From: Paenibacillus sp. FSL H7-0331
GTDB taxonomy: Bacteria > Bacillota > Bacilli > Paenibacillales > NBRC-103111
Assembly: GCF_001956045.1 (NCBI RefSeq)
Contig: NZ_MRTH01000008.1
Location: 62,001-126,000 of the forward strand
Direction of reading: 5' to 3'
Length of the DNA: 64,000 bases
Each line of letters begins with the position of its first letter. The first letter of the stretch is position 1. A model generated the notes under the pieces. That model made no database searches and had not been told where the DNA came from. It saw nothing but the letters and a program-made list of their open reading frames with translations. Shown in pieces: positions 13,251 through 23,889 of this stretch. Position numbers and translations under genes: made by a program.

Positions 13251-13354
13251 ATATATGAATCCACACTTTCGTTAGAAGGTTAACATATACAAATTATAGC
13301 CTATCTTTATGAAATTAGTATGAAAACAATTTCAGGTGGAGGGTGACCAATACG

Positions 13355-14542
13355 TTGAAGGCTCTATTGGTTGATGACGAACGACTTGCACTCATGCAGC
13401 TGGAAAAAATGTTAAAAGAGCTCACCGACATCCAAATTGTAGGTACAAGTATGAATCCGCTGCAAGCTATAGAGATGGCCAGGAATTTAATGCCGGACGT
13501 TATTTTCATGGATATCCAGATGCCGGAATTATCAGGGCTGCAGGCAGCTGAGCTGCTGCAAGAGATTTGCCCATCAGCTGAGATCGTTTTTGTCACTGCA
13601 TTCGATGAGTACGCGATCCAGGCGTTTGAACTTCAAGCTCTTGATTATGTGCTCAAACCGCTGCAGCGAAAACGTTTAATAAAGACACTTCAGCGGTTAA
13701 AGCAGCCGAATGTTAACCCTCCTAAAACCCCACTCCTTGGAGAGCCTGTATCGATTCGCTGCTTCCCATCGCTTCAAATCGAATATAAAGAAAATCAAGC
13801 TGAGGAACTCATCAAATGGAGAACCACCAAGGGGCAGGAGCTATTCGCCTACTTGCTTCATCATCGAGGACAATTAGTACGTAAAAGTGAGCTGCTTGAT
13901 TTATTATGGCCAGACATAGACCCCAAAAAAGCGATCACTTTGCTATATACGACCATTTATCAAATTCGTCAGAACCTCAAGCGCAATGCGATTGATATCC
14001 CCATTCAAAGCTTGAGTGCGGAGGAAGGCTATATGCTGGATGCCGGGCGGGTGCGGTTGGAGTCGGATGAATGGGAGCACAACCTGCGTACACTGGAGCA
14101 TGTGAACGTGAATAATTTAGCTGCGCATCAACGGGTGTTAGACATGTACAGAGGCGAATATTTGGGCAAACATGATTATTTATGGGCAGAGGGAGATCGT
14201 CAACGAATGGCAATGCGCTGGCTGCACCATGCTCAACAGGTTGCAGAGTGCTACTCGCAGAACGGAATGTGGAACGAGGCTGCGGGGGTATATCATCGAA
14301 TCCAACAGGAGCAGCCTTTGTCGGAGGACAGTTTCTTTGCATTAATGAAATTGTATGATCTTATGGGCCAGCGCGCGTCTGTAGAAGAGCAGTATCAACT
14401 GCTGTTGAAGATGCTGGAACAGGAGCTGAACCTCGAGCCTAAGGGGGAAATTACCCATTGGTTTGAGTGCTGGAAGCAGCAGATCAGTGACACGAGGACA
14501 CATGTACCTCTATGGATAGTCAGCAAACGAAAATTATTGTAG
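13355..14542 (+). CDS. Response regulator with winged helix and BTAD domain (SARP type)
   Basis: About 395 residues. The N-terminal receiver domain has LVDDERLAL, phosphoacceptor Asp in FMDIQMPELSG and Lys in YVLKPL. A winged helix follows (KGQELFAYLLHHRGQLVRKSELLDLLWP), then a bacterial transcriptional activation domain of TPR-like helices to the end. Such regulators are DNA-binding activators phosphorylated by a sensor kinase; none is adjacent. The 7TM-DISM hybrid kinase 15 kb away is a plausible partner because such pairs are common in Paenibacillus (recalled, not checked). The TTG at 13355, about 12 bases after GGAGG, gives the normal LKALLVDDE start. A GTG at 13343 lies directly against the site and is less likely. 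Confidence 0.88.
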   Translation: MKALLVDDERLALMQLEKMLKELTDIQIVGTSMNPLQAIEMARNLMPDVIFMDIQMPELSGLQAAELLQEICPSAEIVFVTAFDEYAIQAFELQALDYVLKPLQRKRLIKTLQRLKQPNVNPPKTPLLGEPVSIRCFPSLQIEYKENQAEELIKWRTTKGQELFAYLLHHRGQLVRKSELLDLLWPDIDPKKAITLLYTTIYQIRQNLKRNAIDIPIQSLSAEEGYMLDAGRVRLESDEWEHNLRTLEHVNVNNLAAHQRVLDMYRGEYLGKHDYLWAEGDRQRMAMRWLHHAQQVAECYSQNGMWNEAAGVYHRIQQEQPLSEDSFFALMKLYDLMGQRASVEEQYQLLLKMLEQELNLEPKGEITHWFECWKQQISDTRTHVPLWIVSKRKLL

Positions 14543-14842: not shown

Positions 14843-15151
14843 GTGGTTAATTGCTTATTCTGAAAATCTTTTATTGCAGGAGGTGGAAATAGGTACGGGG
14901 ACTCTAGGATCATTCAAGCTGCCTCCTAACGGGCTTGATCAACAGTCATAGGACATACATAGAGGATACATACACCTGATTGTAGGGTTACTCGTCTTGA
15001 AATTAATCTGCAATTCGGAAGTACGGTATATCTTAAACCCGTGGCAAGAATGGAAATTAGAAATTGAAAGATGTTTGAGGAACATGTAGTTGGAATATTA
15101 CTCAATACAATACATTGCCAGCTCATGTTAACCGATTTGGGGGAGCGATGT

Positions 15152-18100
15152 ATGGGGAATTTGAAACAATTATCAAAAAGAAGCCGATCCCTTTTGGAGT
15201 TTCCCAAAAGAGTGCTTTTCTTATTTATGGCGTTGTCGCTGGCCATATTGCCTTATTACAACTTTGCTGTATGGGCGGATGTTTCTTTATCTTTAGAAAA
15301 AACGGTAGACAAGACGTCAGCATTTCCAGGGGAAACCATCACGTATACGATTAAATACGCGAACCCAAGCACGACTGAAGCAGCTCAGAATATGATTATC
15401 ACCGACGTCTTGCCAAGTACTCTGGATTATGTGGGAGTCGACACCTCGACTGATGTCAGTGCGGTCGATACTTCGGTCCCTGGTACAGTGAAGTTTAACA
15501 TGGTTAGTCCTTTAGCAGCAGGTAAAACCGGCATCATAAAGGTTAAAGCCAAGTTCAAGGAAGGGGTAACCCTGAATGGCGCCACTGCACTAAATAGTGT
15601 GACAGCCAAAGCTGATAACAGCCCTGTAATTACGGCATCAGCACCGGTGGTCACCGCAAATGTTAATGCTCCCGATTGGTCGATATCCAAAGCAAAAATC
15701 CTCCCTGCGGTTGATCCAGCTTTGAACAGCAATGTGACCTATCAGATCAAGCTGAAGGGGAATAGTGCTCCAGGCGGCACCAATATCCAAAACGTTGGAG
15801 TTATGGATACTCTCCCAGTAGGGTCTACTTTTGTATCCGCCACTGGGGGCGGTGTGTATGATGCCGTGTATGGAAAGGTTTCTTGGCCTTCATCAGCTTT
15901 AAATGTCGGGCAGGAAAAAACCTATGAAGTTGTACTGAGTTATCCAAGTCCAACCTTTCATGTAGGCGATTCAGTTACGAATTCCGTCTATGCGGTCGGT
16001 ACCAGTCTGACTGGAGCTGCTCTTAGGACGAATACGGCTAATGCTACACATCTGCTAGCAGCTCCTGACCCAGGAATTTATGACATTAAAAAGGAAGCAC
16101 GTCAAGCGAGCGATGAGTATTCCATTGGACAGACTGTCAAGTATAAGATTAATGGCTTTGGAAACAAAGGTAATGTACCCTTGGATAACTTTGTAGTTGA
16201 GGATGCTATACCGAAAGAAATTAATCTGACTCAGATTTCTACAGGCTCCTATAGTAATAATACGGGTGTTACCGTAAATGTGTATTACCAGAAAACTGGA
16301 GTTAATACCTGGCTGAGTTGGACTGGAGGCGTTAATCTCAGCAGTGGCAGCAGCCAGACCTTAAATGTAGCTTCTTTAGGACTCGTGGCTGGGGAATATG
16401 TTTCCAAAGTGAAGTTGGATTATGGCACAGTGCCAAGCAGTTTCCGTGTTGCCTCCGATATCCAGCTGCAGGGGACCCTGCTTAGTACGGATCATAACTC
16501 ACTACCGGTTGTTGATAATCAACTAATTAACAACACGGCTGTGCTTACGGCTAATTATGGAGCTACACCTTTTAACAGCAGCAGCTTAGTAACTATTAAG
16601 GTTGTACAACCTATACCTTGGGTTGTTGCGAATAAATCGGTTGTAGGCAGTGCATCGGTGAAAGAGAACGATACGCTCACCTATAAGCTGCGGGTGCAGA
16701 ATCATGAGTTTGCTACGGGGGATATGACGCACCCGGAAATAGTGGAATTCTTTCCGAATGAGTTGGAAAATTTCACAGTGGTGGGTATAACAAATAACTC
16801 TAGCACACCTATTGGAGCCCCTGTTTTTAACAGCTATAATAAGACCGTAGGTTCAGTAACGTATTCGGTCTATAGTTGGGAGTTTCTTAGTGCCGTTCTG
16901 AAGCCAAACGAGTATATCGATGTTACCATTAGCGGTACTGTCAAGCATGCTACACCTAATGGGAATTTTGGCAATACGATGTACGCAACGACTACAGCTA
17001 CAAATACCTATAAAGGTACAGTAGTGAGCGATGTACCGGAAGACCGAGATAATAATCCGGCTACGACACAATTCGTAAAGGCCTCGGTTAACGCTTATGT
17101 GAAATTCACAGGCTCTCTGGAATCCATCAAATGGGTAAAAGGAGAAGTCGATAATGCCTTCACAAAGTACCCGGCTAACGGAGAGACGCTGCCTGGTGGT
17201 AAAGCGATGTATCAATTGGTCGTAAGTAATGTTACTTCCAATGGTCCTATTTCCAATATCGTTATTGTAGACAAGCTGCCTCGTATTACAGACACAGGTG
17301 TAGTTGATACAAATGCTCGTTTATCTGACTGGAGGCCTTATCTGGTAAATAGCGTTACGGGACCAGGCGGAGCACCACTGGATCCACGAATTAAGGTATA
17401 TTATTCGACAGATGTAAGTCCGAATGTCAGTGATATATCCAATCCGTTGAATCCGACTCACACAGGTTGGAGTCTAACGCCTCCTGATGACATTACGACC
17501 GTCACCGCGTTGGAATTCGACTTCGGCACTATTACCCTTAACCAAGGAGAATCAGTCACCTTGGAATGGGATATGCGTGCACCAGTAAATGCACCGAGAA
17601 ACGAGATCGCCTGGAACTCATTTGGTTATGGAGCAACTTATCCCGATGAGGGCGGACCGCAGTCTTTCTTACCCTCAGAGCCTATCAAGGTAGGTTTTCT
17701 GATTAAAGACACCGATCCTGCAGGTACCGGCAATATAGGTGACTTTATCTGGATGGATTCGAATGCGAATGGCATTCAGGAAGCAGGCGAGAAAGGAATC
17801 AATGGGATTCTTGTGAATTTATACAAAACCAACGATCTCACTAATCGTATAGGCTACACAAGAACCGGAGATCGACATGGGTCGAATGAGCCAGGTTATT
17901 ATGAGTTTCCTAATCTTCAAGCTGATGATTATACGGTAGAATTCGTAATGCCGACTGGCTATTACTTATCACCTCATAATCAGGGCTCAGATCGTGCCAA
18001 AGATAGCGATTTTACTTTAAATCCATCAACATTAACATACCAAGTAAGCAAAAATCTTGGTTATGAAGAAACCGATATGACTCTGGATGCGGGTATCTAT

Positions 18101-21100
18101 ACCAAAGGCTCAATTGGAGATTTTGTGTGGGTGGATAAGAACGCCAATGGTATTCAGGATGCAGGTGAACCTAGTCTTGATGGGGGAACGGTAGAACTGT
18201 ATGATGATGCTGATATTACAACTCCTTTGAAAAGCACGACGACTAGCGGAGGCGGTAAATACATATTCACTGACCTGGATCCAGGAAGCTATCGCGTGAA
18301 GTTCATTAAGCCTATTGGGTATAAATCGACGCTTCAGGATCAGGGGAATGATGATAAAATCGATTCTGACCGCGATGATACGAATGGTTTAAGCCATATC
18401 GTGGTATTAAGCTCTGGCCAAAACGACATGACCGTGGATGCAGGATTTTATCTCGGTGAAATCGGTGATCTGGTCTGGCATGACCTGAATGCCAACGGTG
18501 TTCAGGATGCAGGAGAACCAGGTATACATGGTGTATCGGTTAAGCTCCATAAGGCAGCTGACCTTACAACTCCTATAGCAACTACTACGACTGACGCAAG
18601 CGGGATTTACAAATTCTCTGATTTGCTTCCAGGAGATTATGTAGTCAAGTTTACTCGTCCAGCGGCTTACAATTATTTCTCTCCTTCGAATCGGGGATCC
18701 AATGATGCATTGGATAGCGACGCGACCTATACAGCTCGGACTGATGCAGAAGCTGTTGTCAATGGTATTACGCTGCTCGAAGGCGGACGCAACTATACCT
18801 TCGATGCGGGTGTATTCAAGCCAGCCAGCCTTGGGGATAGAGTCTTTCTCGATGCCAACAAAAATGGCATTCAAGACACTGGCGAAGTGGGAATTTCGGG
18901 TGTAACGGTTAAGCTGTATAAGACTTCCGCACCTAATACCGCAGTGGCTACAACGTTTACGGATCTAACAGGTTTGTACCAGTTTACGAATCTGGATCCA
19001 GACAGCTATTTCGTTGAATTCATCAAACCAACAGGGTATGCTATCACTTCCAAAAATCAAGGCGGTTCTGCAGCATTAGATTCGGATGCAGACCCGACTA
19101 CTGGAAAAACAGCCAGTGTCCCTCTATCGTCAGGGGAAGCTAATATGACGGTAGATGCCGGGATGTATATTCCTACCAATGGTTCCATTGGGGACTTGGT
19201 CTGGCATGATTTGAATGCGAACGGCATACAGGATCCAGGAGAGCCAGGCATTCCGGGTGTAACCGTTGAGCTGTATAATGCCGATACAAATGCACTGCTG
19301 GATACCAAAACCACAGATGCTGGCGGGAACTATCTCTTCACTAATCTTCTGCTTACAAGTAACTACAAGGTGAAATTCCTTAAACCAAGTGGTTACAAGG
19401 AAAGCCCGGCAAATGTAGGGGCGGATGACAGCAAGGATTCGGATAGAGATATTATAACGGGTTTCAGCCATACTCTTACATTAAGTACAACTATTAATGA
19501 TTTAACTGTCGATGCTGGTTTTTATAAGCTGGCCAAGCTCGGCGACAAAGTGTTTAAAGATGTGAATGTTAACGGCATACAAGATGCTAGTGAAGCTGGC
19601 GTAGCTAATGTTACAGTTAATCTGTATCGTTCCGACGCCCCAACAGTAATTGTCGCAACAACCGTTACGGATACCAATGGCAACTATCTGTTTGATAATT
19701 TGGAGCCAGATTCCTATGTGGTAGGGTTTGTGCCTGTTAGCGGTCACAGCTTTACGTATAAGCACGTAGGGATCGACAATACAATTGATTCCGACGTTAA
19801 TAGTTTAGGTTTTACAGATCCCATTGTATTGCGTTCCGGAGATGATAATAGAACGGTGGATGCCGGGATTTACGTTCCTAATGCAGGCGGCGGTGGTTCT
19901 ATTGGAGACTTGGTCTGGCATGACTTGAATGCAAATGGCATACAGGATCCAGGAGAGCCCGGCATACCGGGAGTAACGGTGGAGCTCTATAATGCGGATA
20001 CGAATGCGCTGCTGGGTACTAGAACTACAGATGCCTTAGGACATTATTACTTCAATGACCTTCTGCTTACAGGTAACTATAAAGTGAAGTTCCTTAAACC
20101 AAGCGGGTACAAGGAAAGTCCGGCAAATGTAGGAACGGATGACAGCAAGGATTCGGATAGAGACGTTACAACCGGCTTCAGCCATACTCTTACATTAACT
20201 ACAAGTATTAATGATTTAACGGTTGATGCTGGTTTCTACAAGCTAGCTAAACTCGGCGACAAAGTATTTAAAGATGTTAATGAAAATGGTATTCAGGATG
20301 TAAAAGAAGAAGGCGTTGCGAATGTAACGGTTAGCCTGTATCTTTCTGATGCGCTGGCGGTACCTGTCAAGACAACTGTCACGGATGCTAATGGCAACTA
20401 TCTGTTTGACGATCTGGAGCCAGGTTCCTATGTAGTAGGGTTTACGGCTGTTAACGGCTATAGCTTTACTTTAAAGAATGAAGGGACAGATCGTACCATG
20501 GATTCGGATGTCAATAACTTAGGTTTTACGGATCCTGTTGTATTGCTTTCTGGAGACGATAACAGAACCGTGGATGCTGGAATTTATAATTCTACCAAGG
20601 GTTCTATCGGAGACATTGTCTGGCATGATTTGAACGCAAACGGCATACAGGATGCAGGAGAGCCAGGCATTCAGGGAGTAACCGTTGAGTTGTATGATGC
20701 AGATACGAATGTGCTGCTGGGTACCCGAACTACAGATGCAGGTGGACGCTATCTGTTTACAGACCTTATTCTCGTAGGTAACTATAAGGTGAAATTCCTT
20801 AAACCAGATGGGTACAAGGAAAGTCCGGCAAATGCAGGAACGGATGATAGCAAAGATTCGGATAGAGACGTTACAACAGGCTTCAGTCATACTCTTACAT
20901 TAAGCACAAGTATTAATGATTTAACAGTGGACGCTGGTTTCTACAAGCTAGCTAAACTCGGCGACAAAGTGTTTAGAGATTTCAATGTGAACGGTATACA
21001 GGATGTGAACGATGAAGGTGTTGCGAATGTTACAGTTAACTTGTATCGTTCCGATGCGCCAGCCGTAATTATGGCAACAACCGTCACGGATGCTAACGGC

Positions 21101-21952
21101 AATTATCTGTTTGACAATCTGGAGCCAGGTTCTTATGTAGTAGGTTTCGTGGCCGGTAACGGTTATATATATACACCTAAGAACATGGGGACGGACAAAA
21201 CTATCGATTCAGATGTCAATAATTTAGGTTTTACGGATCCTATTATATTGCTTTCTGGAGACGATAACAGAACGATAGATGCCGGGGTTTATATTCTTTA
21301 CTCAGGTGGCGGAGGAGGAGGCGGTGGCGGTGGCGGTTCATCACCAGAGCCAACAACACCAGAACCGACTCCAGGGACAACTCCAGTACCAACACCAGAA
21401 CCGACTCCAGGAACGATTCCAGTGCCAACACCAGAACCGACTCCAGGAACGATTCCAGTGCCAACACCAGAACCGACTCCAGGAACGATTCCAGTGCCAA
21501 CACCAGAACCGACTCCAGTAACAGTTCCAGTGCCAACTCCAGCACAACCTGTAACTACGGATCAGGATACCCCCGTAGCAGGAGCAGTGCCGTCGATAGT
21601 GGACACGGGAAATATAACGGTTCCGAAGACGTATACGCTTGAAGTTGAGCCTCAAAATGGAATTGTTGAATTAACGGATGATGGAAAATGGGTATATAAA
21701 CCGAAGGAAGGCTTTAACGGCAAAGATACCTTTACCATCGGTATCAAGGATGAGAATGGAGATATTAATTTCCATGATGTTACGGTCAATGTACTTCCAA
21801 ATAGCAATAAAAAGGTTACTGAACCTGTAGTTTCCCTAGTACCAAAAACAGGCCAAGAGGCTTATAGCAGCTTTTATCTGACAGGACTAGCTTTGGTACT
21901 TGCTGGACTTGGGGTATTTGGAGCTACACGTTGGCAGCAACGTAGAAAATAA
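15152..21952 (+). CDS. Giant LPXTG-type cell-wall adhesin with DUF11-like and SdrD-B-like repeats
   Basis: A 2266-residue secreted surface protein. Residues 1-42 are a signal peptide (KRVLFLFMALSLAILPYY, cleavage likely after VWA). About 45-850 hold several DUF11-like beta-sandwich domains (SLEKTVDKTSAFPGETITYTI and relatives). About 860-2050 hold ten SdrD-B/Cna-B-like domains, each with GDxVWxDxNxNGIQDxGE and ending DAGxY; their Asp/Asn-rich loops suggest Ca2+ binding. A poly-Gly run, a Pro/Glu/Thr stalk and a cadherin-like domain (YKPKEGFNGKDTFTI) follow. The C-terminus has VPKTG, a hydrophobic helix and RRK, a sortase sorting signal. It should stand off the wall as an adhesin or matrix protein. 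The ATG at 15152 follows GGGGGAG by 6 bases. A class B sortase gene lies 91 bases downstream. Confidence 0.92.
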   Translation: MGNLKQLSKRSRSLLEFPKRVLFLFMALSLAILPYYNFAVWADVSLSLEKTVDKTSAFPGETITYTIKYANPSTTEAAQNMIITDVLPSTLDYVGVDTSTDVSAVDTSVPGTVKFNMVSPLAAGKTGIIKVKAKFKEGVTLNGATALNSVTAKADNSPVITASAPVVTANVNAPDWSISKAKILPAVDPALNSNVTYQIKLKGNSAPGGTNIQNVGVMDTLPVGSTFVSATGGGVYDAVYGKVSWPSSALNVGQEKTYEVVLSYPSPTFHVGDSVTNSVYAVGTSLTGAALRTNTANATHLLAAPDPGIYDIKKEARQASDEYSIGQTVKYKINGFGNKGNVPLDNFVVEDAIPKEINLTQISTGSYSNNTGVTVNVYYQKTGVNTWLSWTGGVNLSSGSSQTLNVASLGLVAGEYVSKVKLDYGTVPSSFRVASDIQLQGTLLSTDHNSLPVVDNQLINNTAVLTANYGATPFNSSSLVTIKVVQPIPWVVANKSVVGSASVKENDTLTYKLRVQNHEFATGDMTHPEIVEFFPNELENFTVVGITNNSSTPIGAPVFNSYNKTVGSVTYSVYSWEFLSAVLKPNEYIDVTISGTVKHATPNGNFGNTMYATTTATNTYKGTVVSDVPEDRDNNPATTQFVKASVNAYVKFTGSLESIKWVKGEVDNAFTKYPANGETLPGGKAMYQLVVSNVTSNGPISNIVIVDKLPRITDTGVVDTNARLSDWRPYLVNSVTGPGGAPLDPRIKVYYSTDVSPNVSDISNPLNPTHTGWSLTPPDDITTVTALEFDFGTITLNQGESVTLEWDMRAPVNAPRNEIAWNSFGYGATYPDEGGPQSFLPSEPIKVGFLIKDTDPAGTGNIGDFIWMDSNANGIQEAGEKGINGILVNLYKTNDLTNRIGYTRTGDRHGSNEPGYYEFPNLQADDYTVEFVMPTGYYLSPHNQGSDRAKDSDFTLNPSTLTYQVSKNLGYEETDMTLDAGIYTKGSIGDFVWVDKNANGIQDAGEPSLDGGTVELYDDADITTPLKSTTTSGGGKYIFTDLDPGSYRVKFIKPIGYKSTLQDQGNDDKIDSDRDDTNGLSHIVVLSSGQNDMTVDAGFYLGEIGDLVWHDLNANGVQDAGEPGIHGVSVKLHKAADLTTPIATTTTDASGIYKFSDLLPGDYVVKFTRPAAYNYFSPSNRGSNDALDSDATYTARTDAEAVVNGITLLEGGRNYTFDAGVFKPASLGDRVFLDANKNGIQDTGEVGISGVTVKLYKTSAPNTAVATTFTDLTGLYQFTNLDPDSYFVEFIKPTGYAITSKNQGGSAALDSDADPTTGKTASVPLSSGEANMTVDAGMYIPTNGSIGDLVWHDLNANGIQDPGEPGIPGVTVELYNADTNALLDTKTTDAGGNYLFTNLLLTSNYKVKFLKPSGYKESPANVGADDSKDSDRDIITGFSHTLTLSTTINDLTVDAGFYKLAKLGDKVFKDVNVNGIQDASEAGVANVTVNLYRSDAPTVIVATTVTDTNGNYLFDNLEPDSYVVGFVPVSGHSFTYKHVGIDNTIDSDVNSLGFTDPIVLRSGDDNRTVDAGIYVPNAGGGGSIGDLVWHDLNANGIQDPGEPGIPGVTVELYNADTNALLGTRTTDALGHYYFNDLLLTGNYKVKFLKPSGYKESPANVGTDDSKDSDRDVTTGFSHTLTLTTSINDLTVDAGFYKLAKLGDKVFKDVNENGIQDVKEEGVANVTVSLYLSDALAVPVKTTVTDANGNYLFDDLEPGSYVVGFTAVNGYSFTLKNEGTDRTMDSDVNNLGFTDPVVLLSGDDNRTVDAGIYNSTKGSIGDIVWHDLNANGIQDAGEPGIQGVTVELYDADTNVLLGTRTTDAGGRYLFTDLILVGNYKVKFLKPDGYKESPANAGTDDSKDSDRDVTTGFSHTLTLSTSINDLTVDAGFYKLAKLGDKVFRDFNVNGIQDVNDEGVANVTVNLYRSDAPAVIMATTVTDANGNYLFDNLEPGSYVVGFVAGNGYIYTPKNMGTDKTIDSDVNNLGFTDPIILLSGDDNRTIDAGVYILYSGGGGGGGGGGGSSPEPTTPEPTPGTTPVPTPEPTPGTIPVPTPEPTPGTIPVPTPEPTPGTIPVPTPEPTPVTVPVPTPAQPVTTDQDTPVAGAVPSIVDTGNITVPKTYTLEVEPQNGIVELTDDGKWVYKPKEGFNGKDTFTIGIKDENGDINFHDVTVNVLPNSNKKVTEPVVSLVPKTGQEAYSSFYLTGLALVLAGLGVFGATRWQQRRK
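17731..21300 (+). repeat. Ten SdrD-B-like domain repeats, last six as three two-domain modules
   Basis: Ten copies of a roughly 110-125 residue domain. The last six alternate between type X (GDLVWHDLNANGIQD, ends DAGFYKL) and type Y (AKLGDKVFKDVNVNGIQD, ends DAGIY). The X-Y pair recurs near 19180, 19895 and 20600, about 710 bases apart. Copies are very similar at DNA level, consistent with recent tandem duplication. Confidence 0.85.
21353..21532 (+). repeat. 36-bp tandem repeat coding for a Pro-rich wall-spanning stalk
   Basis: Five 36-base units encode PTPEPTPGTIPV-like 12-mers. Units at 21389-21424, 21425-21460 and 21461-21496 are identical; the first and last are diverged. A run of Gly codons precedes them at 21306-21336. 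The array keeps frame at any copy number. Confidence 0.95.
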
Positions 21953-21962
21953 AATCCTACAA

Positions 21963-21987
21963 GCAGGGGCACATCATGTGCCTCTGT
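21963..21987 (+). terminator. Hairpin between adhesin and sortase genes
   Basis: GCAGGGGCACAT (21963-21974) faces ATGTGCCTCTGT (21976-21987), a nearly perfect inverted repeat, followed only by TTCACTT. It is probably a partial terminator or mRNA processing hairpin that lowers sortase relative to adhesin expression. Confidence 0.5.
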
Positions 21988-22043
21988 TTCACTTCAATCG
22001 TATAAACAAGCTATTTCGAGTTCATAGGAGAGAGGAGAATCTT

Positions 22044-22871
22044 ATGACAAAGCAACTTCCCCAACCTGCCGCTAGAAGTTATAGATTTTTTTATTGGGCA
22101 GCTTCCATATTGGTATGTGCTGGAGTTGTGTTTATAAGTATGGATGCTTATATACAACATACCGAAAGAAACAATTCACTTCAGTTAAAAAATCAGATGT
22201 TAAGTCTATACCATACAAAAGCACAACCCAATACAGAACAGGCAAATGAGTCCACTGAACTAACCAAAGAAGCAAGCGCTGTAGCCAAAGGCCCAACGGA
22301 AAATGAGAGATTCCAAAGTTTATTGGCTATTAATAAAGAAATCATTGGATGGCTCCATGTTGACGGCACTAGTGTCGATTATCCGGTCCTACAGCATAAA
22401 GACAATGATTATTACTTAAACAGAGACGCATCAGGTAAAAAGTCCATTTATGGCAGTGTGTTTATGGATTACCGTCTGGACACGAATCAAGAACAACGTA
22501 ATCTTGTCATTTATGGACATAATATGATAGATGGCTCCATGTTCGGAAGCCTTGGTAATTATAAAAACAAAGATTTTTTTGCGGAACACCGCAATATTAA
22601 TTGGGGAATACAAGGAAAAATGAGCGATTGGGAAATATTTTCCGTTTATACCATTGACGCCAGTAAAGATACTGTCGATATTTCATATGAAAACGACGAT
22701 GCGTTTCTTCTTGCTTTAGACCAATATCGAAAAAAATCTATGTATCAGGCGGCTGTGACTCTGCAAAAGGATGATCAAATTCTTACACTGGTAACATGCA
22801 GTAATGAGACAGATGATACTCGTTTAGTCATACATGCAGTAAAAAAGGGGCCGAGGGCCCCTTTTTCTTAA
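22044..22871 (+). CDS. Class B sortase
   Basis: A membrane-anchored cysteine transpeptidase that joins LPXTG-type surface proteins to peptidoglycan. The 275-residue protein has an N-terminal signal anchor (about residues 15-36), a charged linker, then the sortase barrel. The catalytic triad is visible: His159 in VIYGHNM, Cys252 in TLVTCS and Arg260 in DDTRLVIHA. WLHVDGTSVDYPVLQ and YGSVFMDYR are class B features. The ATG at 22044 follows AGAGGAG by 6 bases. It lies directly after the giant adhesin, so the VPKTG signal there is its likely substrate. The last codons overlap a terminator hairpin. Confidence 0.93.
   Translation: MTKQLPQPAARSYRFFYWAASILVCAGVVFISMDAYIQHTERNNSLQLKNQMLSLYHTKAQPNTEQANESTELTKEASAVAKGPTENERFQSLLAINKEIIGWLHVDGTSVDYPVLQHKDNDYYLNRDASGKKSIYGSVFMDYRLDTNQEQRNLVIYGHNMIDGSMFGSLGNYKNKDFFAEHRNINWGIQGKMSDWEIFSVYTIDASKDTVDISYENDDAFLLALDQYRKKSMYQAAVTLQKDDQILTLVTCSNETDDTRLVIHAVKKGPRAPFS
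22842..22866. terminator. Bidirectional terminator inside the sortase 3' end
   Basis: AAAAAGGGGCC (22842-22852), loop GAG, then GGCCCCTTTTT (22856-22866). The stem is perfect and codes for the last residues (KKGPRAPFS) of the sortase. It also serves the convergent transglutaminase-like gene, which ends at 22882. Confidence 0.9.
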
Positions 22872-22881
22872 CAATCCTATT

Positions 22882-23703
22882 TTATTTTGCAATCGGATAA
22901 TCGCTTTCCACCCAAGTATGACCCATTTTCAGAAGTTCTTCATTTGTTACATTAAAATATTTAGTAGATTGAACACCTGGATGATCAGGTGTAGGGTCGT
23001 CAAAGACGGTATCAAGCATATACCAGTTGTTATCTATGCTCACTGCATTCCACATGTGCGTTTGCGCAGGATCATCATTTATGTAACCAACCACGAGCCG
23101 ACTTGTGATTCCTGCTTTATTGAGAAGCTTATTCGTTAGGATCGCATAGCCTTGGCACACGGCCTTTTTGTTAAAGACTGCTGAGTAAGCTGTATGTCCA
23201 ATGTCGTCTAAATTTTCATAAGAGGTATTGGAGACGACATAGTCGTGAATGGCAGCTTCTTTTTCAAGATTGTTCATGTTTGGTGTCAGAATTTCCTTCA
23301 GAATACGGTCAACCTCATTGTCTACGTATTGGTCTTGTTCTACTGACGTAAGATATTGCGGCGTTAGAGTAATCGTAATATTACCGATGCTTCCCTTCAT
23401 ATTCATAGACAGGTCCTTCATGTTCCAGTAAAGTTCTTCATCAAGATTCCGTTGTGCAAGGTCTATAGTATTTTTAATTGCTTGAACGTAACTTTTCGAA
23501 TCTTCTGTATCTTTAGCTGTGTAGGTGATTGTAATGGAATCTGATTTTTTAGCAAGCTCAGCTTGAATTGTTAATTCCAGCTCTGTTAAATTACTAGCTT
23601 GCAGTGGCGCGCTGGCGCTTGCAGTCTCTGCTTGTACCAACGAAGAGAGAAGAAAAAGCATAACGGTGAGTAAGGTAACGAAAATCTTTAATTTGGAATA
23701 CAT
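22882..23703 (-). CDS. Secreted transglutaminase-like cysteine enzyme under c-di-GMP riboswitch
   Basis: A 273-residue exported protein. Residues 1-29 are a signal peptide ending QAETASA. The C-terminal half is a transglutaminase-like papain-fold domain with the triad Cys183 (AVCQGYA), His216 (THMWNAV) and Asp231 (YMLDTVFDD). The family includes proteases and crosslinking enzymes acting on cell-surface proteins or peptidoglycan. The N-terminal region (about 40-125) matches nothing I know. The start is certain: AAGGGAGG sits 9 bases before the ATG. The leader contains a c-di-GMP-I riboswitch, so expression answers to the motile/sessile switch. The gene converges on the sortase/adhesin pair, suggesting a substrate among surface proteins (inference). 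Confidence 0.88.
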   Translation of the reverse strand: MYSKLKIFVTLLTVMLFLLSSLVQAETASASAPLQASNLTELELTIQAELAKKSDSITITYTAKDTEDSKSYVQAIKNTIDLAQRNLDEELYWNMKDLSMNMKGSIGNITITLTPQYLTSVEQDQYVDNEVDRILKEILTPNMNNLEKEAAIHDYVVSNTSYENLDDIGHTAYSAVFNKKAVCQGYAILTNKLLNKAGITSRLVVGYINDDPAQTHMWNAVSIDNNWYMLDTVFDDPTPDHPGVQSTKYFNVTNEELLKMGHTWVESDYPIAK

Positions 23704-23712
23704 AGCAAAAAA

Positions 23713-23763
23713 CCTCCCTTGTCATTAAGCCAAAAGAGGGTACAATGTACTGTTGCCTCTTGG
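23713..23763 (-). promoter_or_regulatory. Riboswitch expression platform with anti-Shine-Dalgarno
   Basis: On the minus strand CCTCTTTT (23739-23732) can pair over all 8 positions, two of them G-U, with the Shine-Dalgarno AAGGGAGG (23720-23713). The same segment can instead pair with CCAAGAGG (23763-23756), which directly follows the aptamer. The two hairpins exclude each other, giving a translational switch. The direction of control is inferred, not shown. Confidence 0.6.
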
Positions 23764-23838
23764 CGACCCGACGATCATAGCAAAATGCTTTAGACTCGTG
23801 GCTTTGCGTCCCTGCCTTTCGACAGGTTTGCCTTTTTC
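23756..23838 (-). promoter_or_regulatory. c-di-GMP-I (GEMM-I) riboswitch aptamer
   Basis: Read on the minus strand: AAAGGCAAACC, the P1b hairpin CCTGTC-GAAA-GGCAGG with its GNRA tetraloop, the hallmark GGGACGCAAAGCC, then the P2 arm starting CACGAGTCTAAAGC and closing TCGTCGGGTCGCC. All conserved pieces of the GEMM-I consensus are present and in order. It lies 53 bases before the start codon of the transglutaminase-like gene and just downstream of a promoter. Confidence 0.95.
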
Positions 23839-23860
23839 AAAAGTTATTAGATTTGAGCCT

Positions 23861-23889
23861 ATCATACCACAGGGTACTATGAAGTTCAA
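23861..23889 (-). promoter_or_regulatory. Sigma-A promoter for riboswitch transcript
   Basis: On the minus strand TTGAAC (23889-23884) and TATGAT (23866-23861) are 17 bases apart. Transcription would start about 15 bases before the aptamer. Confidence 0.65.

Follow-up and report, generated by a model that had tools for sequence, protein, structure and literature searches.

The 64-kb window analysed here, a contig stretch of Paenibacillus sp. FSL H7-0331, carries on its minus strand a cyclic di-GMP (c-di-GMP) class I riboswitch aptamer followed by the gene of a predicted secreted transglutaminase-like (TG) enzyme, named TG1, which converges on the plus-strand genes for a giant wall-anchored adhesin and a sortase (Table 1). 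On balance, we lean towards reading this locus as an adhesin-retention switch, in which a protease repressed by c-di-GMP would shed a sortase-anchored adhesin, following the logic of LapG and wired like PPEP-1.

The aptamer and the TG1 unit

In a cmscan of the full 64 kb, a single Rfam match exceeded the gathering score: the c-di-GMP-I-GGC aptamer (RF03167), which spans the model in full (positions 1–80 of 80). The first-pass annotation had drawn a GEMM-I leader at 23756-23838 on the minus strand and proposed an Infernal check; the match runs from 23841 to 23758, so that the leader had been placed correctly within a few bases. Our own covariance model R1, built from 28 aptamers of which the window aptamer is one, scores it at 90.1 bits. 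Its 3′ end is located 54 bases upstream of the TG1 start codon (ATG, at 23703). The base-recognition position (G20 in Vc2; A in c-AMP-GMP variants) is presumably a G in the window, which reads AAAGGCAAACC and GACGCAAAGCC. We regard the aptamer match as solid, and the response to the ligand as predicted. A separate aptamer for the window adhesin was ruled out: at E ≤ 10, R1 (which covers class I; Rfam at gathering also covers class II) matched the TG1 aptamer and two further stretches at 14.2 and 12.7 bits.

The enzyme has a signal peptide, recognised by eye, and a Transglut_core domain (PF01841, 59.9 bits, cut-off 23), and the annotated triad of C183, H216 and D231 is invariant in an alignment of 18 sequences. 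The Pfam scan (E ≤ 0.001) reported PF01841 and PF04473 alone, with no match to a LapG-type family or to a PPEP-family metalloprotease; the fold is the transglutaminase/papain-like one, which TG1 has in common with LapG. The convergence on a giant wall-anchored adhesin and its sortase, as first annotated, is borne out by the layout of the open reading frames (ORFs), the C-terminal SLVPKTG anchor and the PF04203 match. The adhesin likely starts at the ATG at 15152; class B and class D labels of sortases were assigned by eye.

A profile search of genome contigs with an eight-sequence alignment confirmed at least 472 TG relatives, of which the best 80 were taken. Amongst these are four close TG1 orthologues with 64–92% identity, in P. 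periandrae (L036), P. alba (L037), P. ferrarius (L038) and P. pectinilyticus (L039). In all four, adhesin and sortase genes occur in the same convergent order (tblastn; sortase identity to the window 52–92%) and RF03167 is present upstream of the enzyme gene (73.6–74.9 bits). A fifth relative, L142, has the same layout with an aptamer of 73.2 bits, and the TG1 homologue of P. qinlingensis (P0008) is 58% identical. In all, the aptamer, enzyme, sortase and adhesin co-occur in each of the five other TG1 units examined, an association that exceeds chance and agrees with the expectation that the three genes are kept as neighbours across Paenibacillus. A sortase and an LPXTG-type adhesin are found in 6/6 TG1 units; a narrower LPXTG rule keeps three of the six adhesins and all six sortases.

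TG1 orthologues at E below 1e-100 occur in 5 of 104 family genomes. Of 24 TG sources screened with R1, the four orthologues (L122–L125) gave a match and the other 20, more distant TGs with about 1.5 kb of flank, gave none. Amongst viral contigs, 19 pattern matches were found, none encoding a relative.

The surroundings of the unit vary. In the window and L036, an M20 peptidase gene and a TenA gene lie on the enzyme side and a response regulator gene with a BTAD domain lies before the adhesin gene. In L037–L039, a response regulator (39–40% identical) precedes the aptamer and enzyme, and L142 is alike; the genes surrounding the unit in L037–L039, with spoIIE amongst those in L037, lack a counterpart in the window. 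Since the flanks differ in this manner, the TG1 unit is kept as a module, and we consider its conservation solid.

Table 1. Coordinates of the TG1 leader, the TG1 unit and the adjoining regulator gene in the window.
Feature	Position	Strand	Remarks
c-di-GMP-I-GGC riboswitch aptamer (RF03167)	23758..23841	-	cmscan 73.6 bits, gathering 59, E 1.5e-15
Extended P1, 5′ strand (CUUUUG)	23838..23843	-	pairs with 23757-23762 (CAAGAG); imposed as bound state in constrained fold
GCCAAGAGG, holds P1 3′ strand; also 5′ arm of alternative anti-sequester helix	23756..23764	-	
UCUUUUGGC, anti-sequester helix 3′ arm	23729..23737	-	
CCUCUUUUG, anti-Shine-Dalgarno arm	23731..23739	-	overlaps UCUUUUGGC
CAAGGGAGG, Shine-Dalgarno arm, then six U	23713..23721	-	
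TG1, predicted secreted transglutaminase-like enzyme	22882..23703	-	273 aa; C183/H216/D231; PF01841
Sortase	21900..22871	+	ORF as listed; likely start ATG at 22044; PF04203, 55.6 bits, cut-off 26.6
Giant wall-anchored adhesin	15071..21952	+	2,293 aa; SdrD_B x10, DUF11 x3, Pro-rich linker, Big_9, SLVPKTG anchor
Response regulator with BTAD domain	13343..14542	+	homologue beside the unit in L037-L039 and L142, at another position

The BTAD response regulator gene shifts between a place before the adhesin (window) and one before the aptamer (8637-9779 in L037; 10452-11603 in L142), and it is a possible second regulator. The sortase ORF ends in a strong GC hairpin flanked by an A-run and a T-run (22841-22866), a possible terminator for both convergent genes.

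Expression platform of the TG1 leader

The stretch that carries the 3′ strand of P1 is identical in the window and L036–L039, and reads GCCAGGAGG in L142. Because the 3′ arm of the anti-sequester helix overlaps the anti-Shine-Dalgarno arm, the anti-sequester and sequester helices are mutually exclusive. We parsed five TG1 leaders for constrained folding, the sixth (L142) being left out. With P1 imposed, the unpaired probability of the Shine-Dalgarno (SD) core is 0.0 in 5/5 leaders; with the anti-helix imposed, it is 0.33–0.69. From these folds, an OFF polarity is predicted and likely. The SD-sequestering hairpin, with six U behind it, could serve as a terminator too.

Binding of c-di-GMP would close P1, by which GCCAAGAGG would no longer be free to hold the anti-Shine-Dalgarno strand; CCUCUUUU would then pair with AAGGGAGG, and translation of the enzyme (perhaps also transcription) would stop. 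At low c-di-GMP, the alternative helix could form and the enzyme would be made and secreted. Acting as a protease, it would cut the sortase-anchored adhesin near the wall and release it, such that cells would stay sticky at high c-di-GMP and shed their adhesin at low c-di-GMP. The modelled folds give good support to our inference that c-di-GMP shuts translation through P1 closure and SD sequestration; the shedding of the adhesin by a cut near the wall is suggested more weakly. The adhesin release set by a riboswitch that the first-pass annotation had proposed is partly supported: the aptamer and the unit are firm and the OFF polarity likely, while release is the best explanation we can offer for the arrangement.

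A second enzyme clade, its neighbours and a motif before the anchor

In L037 and L038, a second aptamer (RF01051, 72.3 bits) is located upstream of a second transglutaminase-like gene, TG2, the product of which (268 aa) is 28% identical to TG1 over 111 residues. TG2 adjoins a sortase gene in both loci; in P. alba, its other side is occupied by the gene for a 1,134-aa LPXTG protein, 54% identical to a collagen-binding protein of L039. A search of 104 family genomes yielded 45 close TG2 members at E below 1e-45, and R1 found an aptamer directly before the gene in 43 of them (30/30, one tandem, and 13/15, 11 tandem). At E ≤ 1e-30, TG2 occurs in 39 of 398 sampled phylum genomes, with an aptamer before the gene in 25/30 loci, some with two or three. 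The TG2 residues C189, H222 and D239 do not vary across 27 sequences.

TG1 and TG2 each form one clade with 100/100 support in a tree of 37 rows. Four further aptamer-bearing TGs, from clostridia, imply three label changes on the tree as drawn (rooted at midpoint for drawing only), of which the well-supported branches force two; the link between aptamer and enzyme has thus been gained, or lost, more than once. Small conserved, membrane-peptide-like ORFs lie behind the upstream aptamers in Desulfosporosinus (L101, 9477-9668 and 8298-8474; L092, 213-416); they count 63, 58 and 67 codons as listed and end in THG-x-(V/I). In view of the T-runs behind these aptamers, the small peptide may be governed by the first aptamer of a pair, and the TG by the second. 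In Pseudobacteroides cellulosolvens (L070, 6760-10001), the aptamer and TG gene are found behind genes that by eye resemble those for a flagellar cap and chaperone.

The TG2 leaders have another platform: the aptamer begins with 12 bases that, as an extended P1, pair with the SD directly behind it, with covariation. In the family set (29 distinct arm pairs from 43 leaders), this pairing amounts to -6.7 kcal/mol; permuted partners give -5.2 (sd 0.31), and none of 20,000 permutations was as strong. In the phylum set, which played no part in finding the pattern, 13 bases were paired with the stretch from aptamer to start in 23 of the 25 leaders (L245 and L255, with long gaps, were dropped), giving -9.1 against -5.8 kcal/mol (sd 0.44), again with 0/20,000 permutations. 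Both platforms, that of TG1 and that of TG2, predict OFF on these models.

In one locus, the adhesin has an aptamer of its own: in L215, an RF01051 match (15389-15476, minus strand) precedes an LPXTG adhesin gene beside a TG2 with tandem aptamers. The leader contains a 13-bp terminator-like hairpin with a T-run, the 5′ arm of which lies in the last 15 bases of the aptamer. We read it as an ON switch beside a TG2 read as OFF, a reciprocal wiring as in Clostridioides difficile. R1 found no further adhesin aptamer in the 44 loci searched; its other matches adjoin TG genes. In L211 (5004-13356) and L229, TG2 is located between two LPXTG collagen-type adhesins, both with a VPLG motif, and in some clostridial TG2 operons the sortase is preceded, as judged by eye, by TasA/CalY-like proteins, a signal-peptidase-like protein and an MPKTG-type protein.

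Gene neighbourhoods were compared with one script for all groups, which counted a sortase (hidden Markov model, HMM, from four sequences) or a secreted-looking LPXTG-type protein within 8 kb. Such a neighbour occurs at 6/6 TG1 loci, 38/42 family TG2 loci and 14/20 phylum TG2 loci, against 2/71 TG loci in which no aptamer precedes the TG gene (Fisher 1.2e-7, 4.6e-23 and 3.7e-10, respectively); an earlier neighbour rule had given 1/71 for the latter. These controls are 71 of the 80 loci, after removal of the four TG1 orthologues, the four aptamer-bearing clostridial loci and L041 (TG at a contig end); control L064 has an aptamer 6 kb from its TG gene, not in front of it. The family neighbourhoods are those of 42 of the 45 members, about 20 kb each, from 39 genomes, and the phylum ones cover 20 of the 30 loci, in some cases with a contig of 4–14 kb. 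L218 was counted as lacking a neighbour, though an LPXTG adhesin is split over two ORFs there.

A genuine riboswitch might also stand in a merely coincidental grouping of c-di-GMP-regulated surface genes, devoid of any biochemical link between their products. Surface genes often cluster, and c-di-GMP-I-GGC aptamers are common in the relatives (54/59 genomes of genus, family and order). The preservation of the module across changed flanks, the enrichment of its neighbours relative to TG loci without an aptamer before the gene and the layout shared by two separate enzyme clades nevertheless make a coincidence very improbable.

Ahead of the anchor, LPXTG proteins of TG2 loci have a linker that is variable except for a short motif, exemplified by D-x-x-x-VPLG, DEDVPRG and EDEPIPAG. 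Defined strictly as [VI]P[LRKA]G within 70 residues, this motif is present in 38/51 TG2-linked LPXTG proteins, in 1/17 from TG2-free family genomes and in 0/24 from TG2-free Bacilli (p 1.5e-13); 10 of the 17 are LPVTG proteins of about 1,100 aa that resemble the TG2-linked adhesin by size and anchor. Since the motif was first spotted in the linked set, only the other sets count as tests. In the Bacilli control as a whole, it was found in 3/27 proteins, exactly those of the three TG2-bearing genomes (E below 1e-50) amongst 30, where the next-best TG2 match was 1e-15. In TG2-bearing family genomes, 5/10 unlinked LPXTG proteins have it, or 7/12 with L314 and L325 (p 3.7e-5), linked and unlinked having been separated by hand from coordinates. 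Loci with an unclear anchor were dropped (2/19 in the family control, 3/30 in the Bacilli control and 1/11 unlinked, L340). A first form of the motif, [VIT]P[LRKAQEGS]G, was abandoned as too loose, as it took in TPGG and TPSG of unlinked proteins; it scored 47/51 linked (shuffles: mean 5.3, maximum 13), 3/17 and 3/27 controls and 7/10 unlinked. We consider [VI]P[LRKA]G a candidate recognition site of TG2. The TG2 system, with sortases and collagen-binding or fibre-type LPXTG proteins of its own, would then operate in the same way as TG1, cutting at this candidate site before the anchor.

Several observations weigh against adhesin shedding by these enzymes under c-di-GMP control. In the TG1 leaders, the SD is paired in the free minimum-energy fold of 5/5, the anti-helix state is 0.6–6.3 kcal/mol worse than the sequestered fold (five leaders), and the stability of the leader as a whole is not exceptional (z -1.67; 8/200 shuffles as good). 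As the sequestered fold is the free minimum, a ligand-free ON state would need to arise kinetically, through folding order; the anti-helix is the minimum in a longer L038 segment only. No aptamer match occurs in 2/45 family and 5/30 phylum TG2 loci. No sortase and no LPXTG protein lies within 8 kb of any of the four clostridial aptamer-bearing TGs (L053, L070, L092, L101), and both are lacking at 6/20 phylum and 4/42 family TG2 loci. No matching by genome was applied to the control TG loci, the four sortases behind the HMM come from the loci studied here, the Bacilli control took one LPXTG protein per genome from the best PF00746 matches, and the permutation and Fisher tests ignore relatedness. 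The strict motif is missing in 13/51 linked and 5/10 unlinked proteins. It is absent from 6/6 TG1 adhesins (the window and five relatives), which rules out a TG1 cut site by the TG2 motif; their aligned C-termini share a conserved stretch at the start of Big_9 and the SLVPKTG anchor, which may reflect domain conservation as well as a cut site. Finally, transamidases and amide synthases share the enzyme fold.

Were the enzyme a genuine transglutaminase or transpeptidase, it would crosslink or mature the adhesin or fibre on the wall, with no release. We think this unlikely: given OFF polarity, the crosslinker would be made when cells leave the sessile state, and a juxta-anchor motif that tracks TG2 fits site-specific cutting better, although it could also be a modification site. 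Nor do we give much credence to a protease directed at the sortase, at peptidoglycan-linked peptides or at other surface proteins, with the adhesin only a co-regulated neighbour. The sortase is indeed the commonest neighbour of TG2 in the phylum set (14/20 loci, against 7/20 with an LPXTG protein), the fold relatives include pseudomurein endoisopeptidases, and aptamer-TG genes without a nearby adhesin exist; the motif tracks TG2 even in unlinked LPXTG proteins, which argues for LPXTG proteins as the substrates.

The adhesin-retention switch thus remains our preferred reading of the window locus. We put at about an even chance the wider proposition that two TG clades, TG1 and TG2, repressed through c-di-GMP-I riboswitches by different platforms and widespread in Bacillota, shed sortase-anchored adhesins or fibres, TG2 cutting at [VI]P[LRKA]G, a motif that accompanies the enzyme even in LPXTG proteins encoded at other places in the genome. 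If true, Bacillota would have evolved once more the control of adhesin shedding by c-di-GMP that is known from LapG and PPEP-1, this time with RNA wiring and a cysteine enzyme that has the LapG fold. Moreover, a large class of riboswitch-controlled "transglutaminase-like" genes would gain a function, as would a short conserved motif before the LPXTG anchor.

Comparison with known systems

The first-pass annotation had deemed that the arrangement would be new. One table row in PMC12452182 links tandem c-di-GMP-I riboswitches to COG1305 transglutaminase-like genes in Bacillota (p 1.08e-34), that is, the riboswitch class and enzyme family of TG2 in the same phylum, and that group is probably the TG2 group. 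The association of riboswitch and TG is, in this respect, already known. In the main text of that paper, "adhes" and "sortase" occur 0 times, and its available passages mention no adhesin, sortase, polarity or substrate. Amongst the matches listed in open-licence literature, we found no description of the adhesin-sortase-transglutaminase system or of adhesin release by it. The literature search likewise found nothing linking Pro-Pro endopeptidase, Paenibacillus and c-di-GMP, and no paper on Streptococcus pyogenes TglA (PDB 9crn), which we place amongst the closest systems. Doublets (347) and triplets (12) of c-di-GMP-I riboswitches are given in passages of PMC9481103.

In Bacillus thuringiensis, the tandem riboswitch Bc3-5 on cspABCDE, as presented in parts of PMC4759541, is likewise a c-di-GMP-I control of wall-anchored surface proteins. 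It is, however, an ON switch on the surface proteins themselves, and the word "transglutaminase" is absent from the main text of that paper.

Pseudomonas LapG is controlled by protein sequestration (LapD), whereas TG1 is preceded by an RNA switch; TG1 lacks a LapG-type Pfam match, and the window adhesin is sortase-anchored, unlike LapA.

The closest parallel in wiring is found in C. difficile. As the first-pass annotation had noted, riboswitches there control both a surface-protein protease and an adhesin: according to passages of PMC4591827 and PMC6447587, c-di-GMP represses zmpI (riboswitch Cdi1_12) and raises CD2831 (Cdi2_3), and ZmpI sheds CD2831. ZmpI/PPEP-1 (CD2830), with CD2831/CD3246 and SrtB, is a secreted protease under a c-di-GMP-I OFF riboswitch, and the protease gene adjoins that of a sortase-anchored adhesin, which the protease sheds. 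The window unit has the corresponding feature of a sortase-anchored adhesin adjoining the enzyme. PPEP-1 is a zinc metalloprotease, whereas TG1 is a Cys-His-Asp enzyme; and the C. difficile adhesin is under a c-di-GMP-II ON riboswitch, while here an adhesin aptamer occurs in one of 44 loci (L215) and is of class I.
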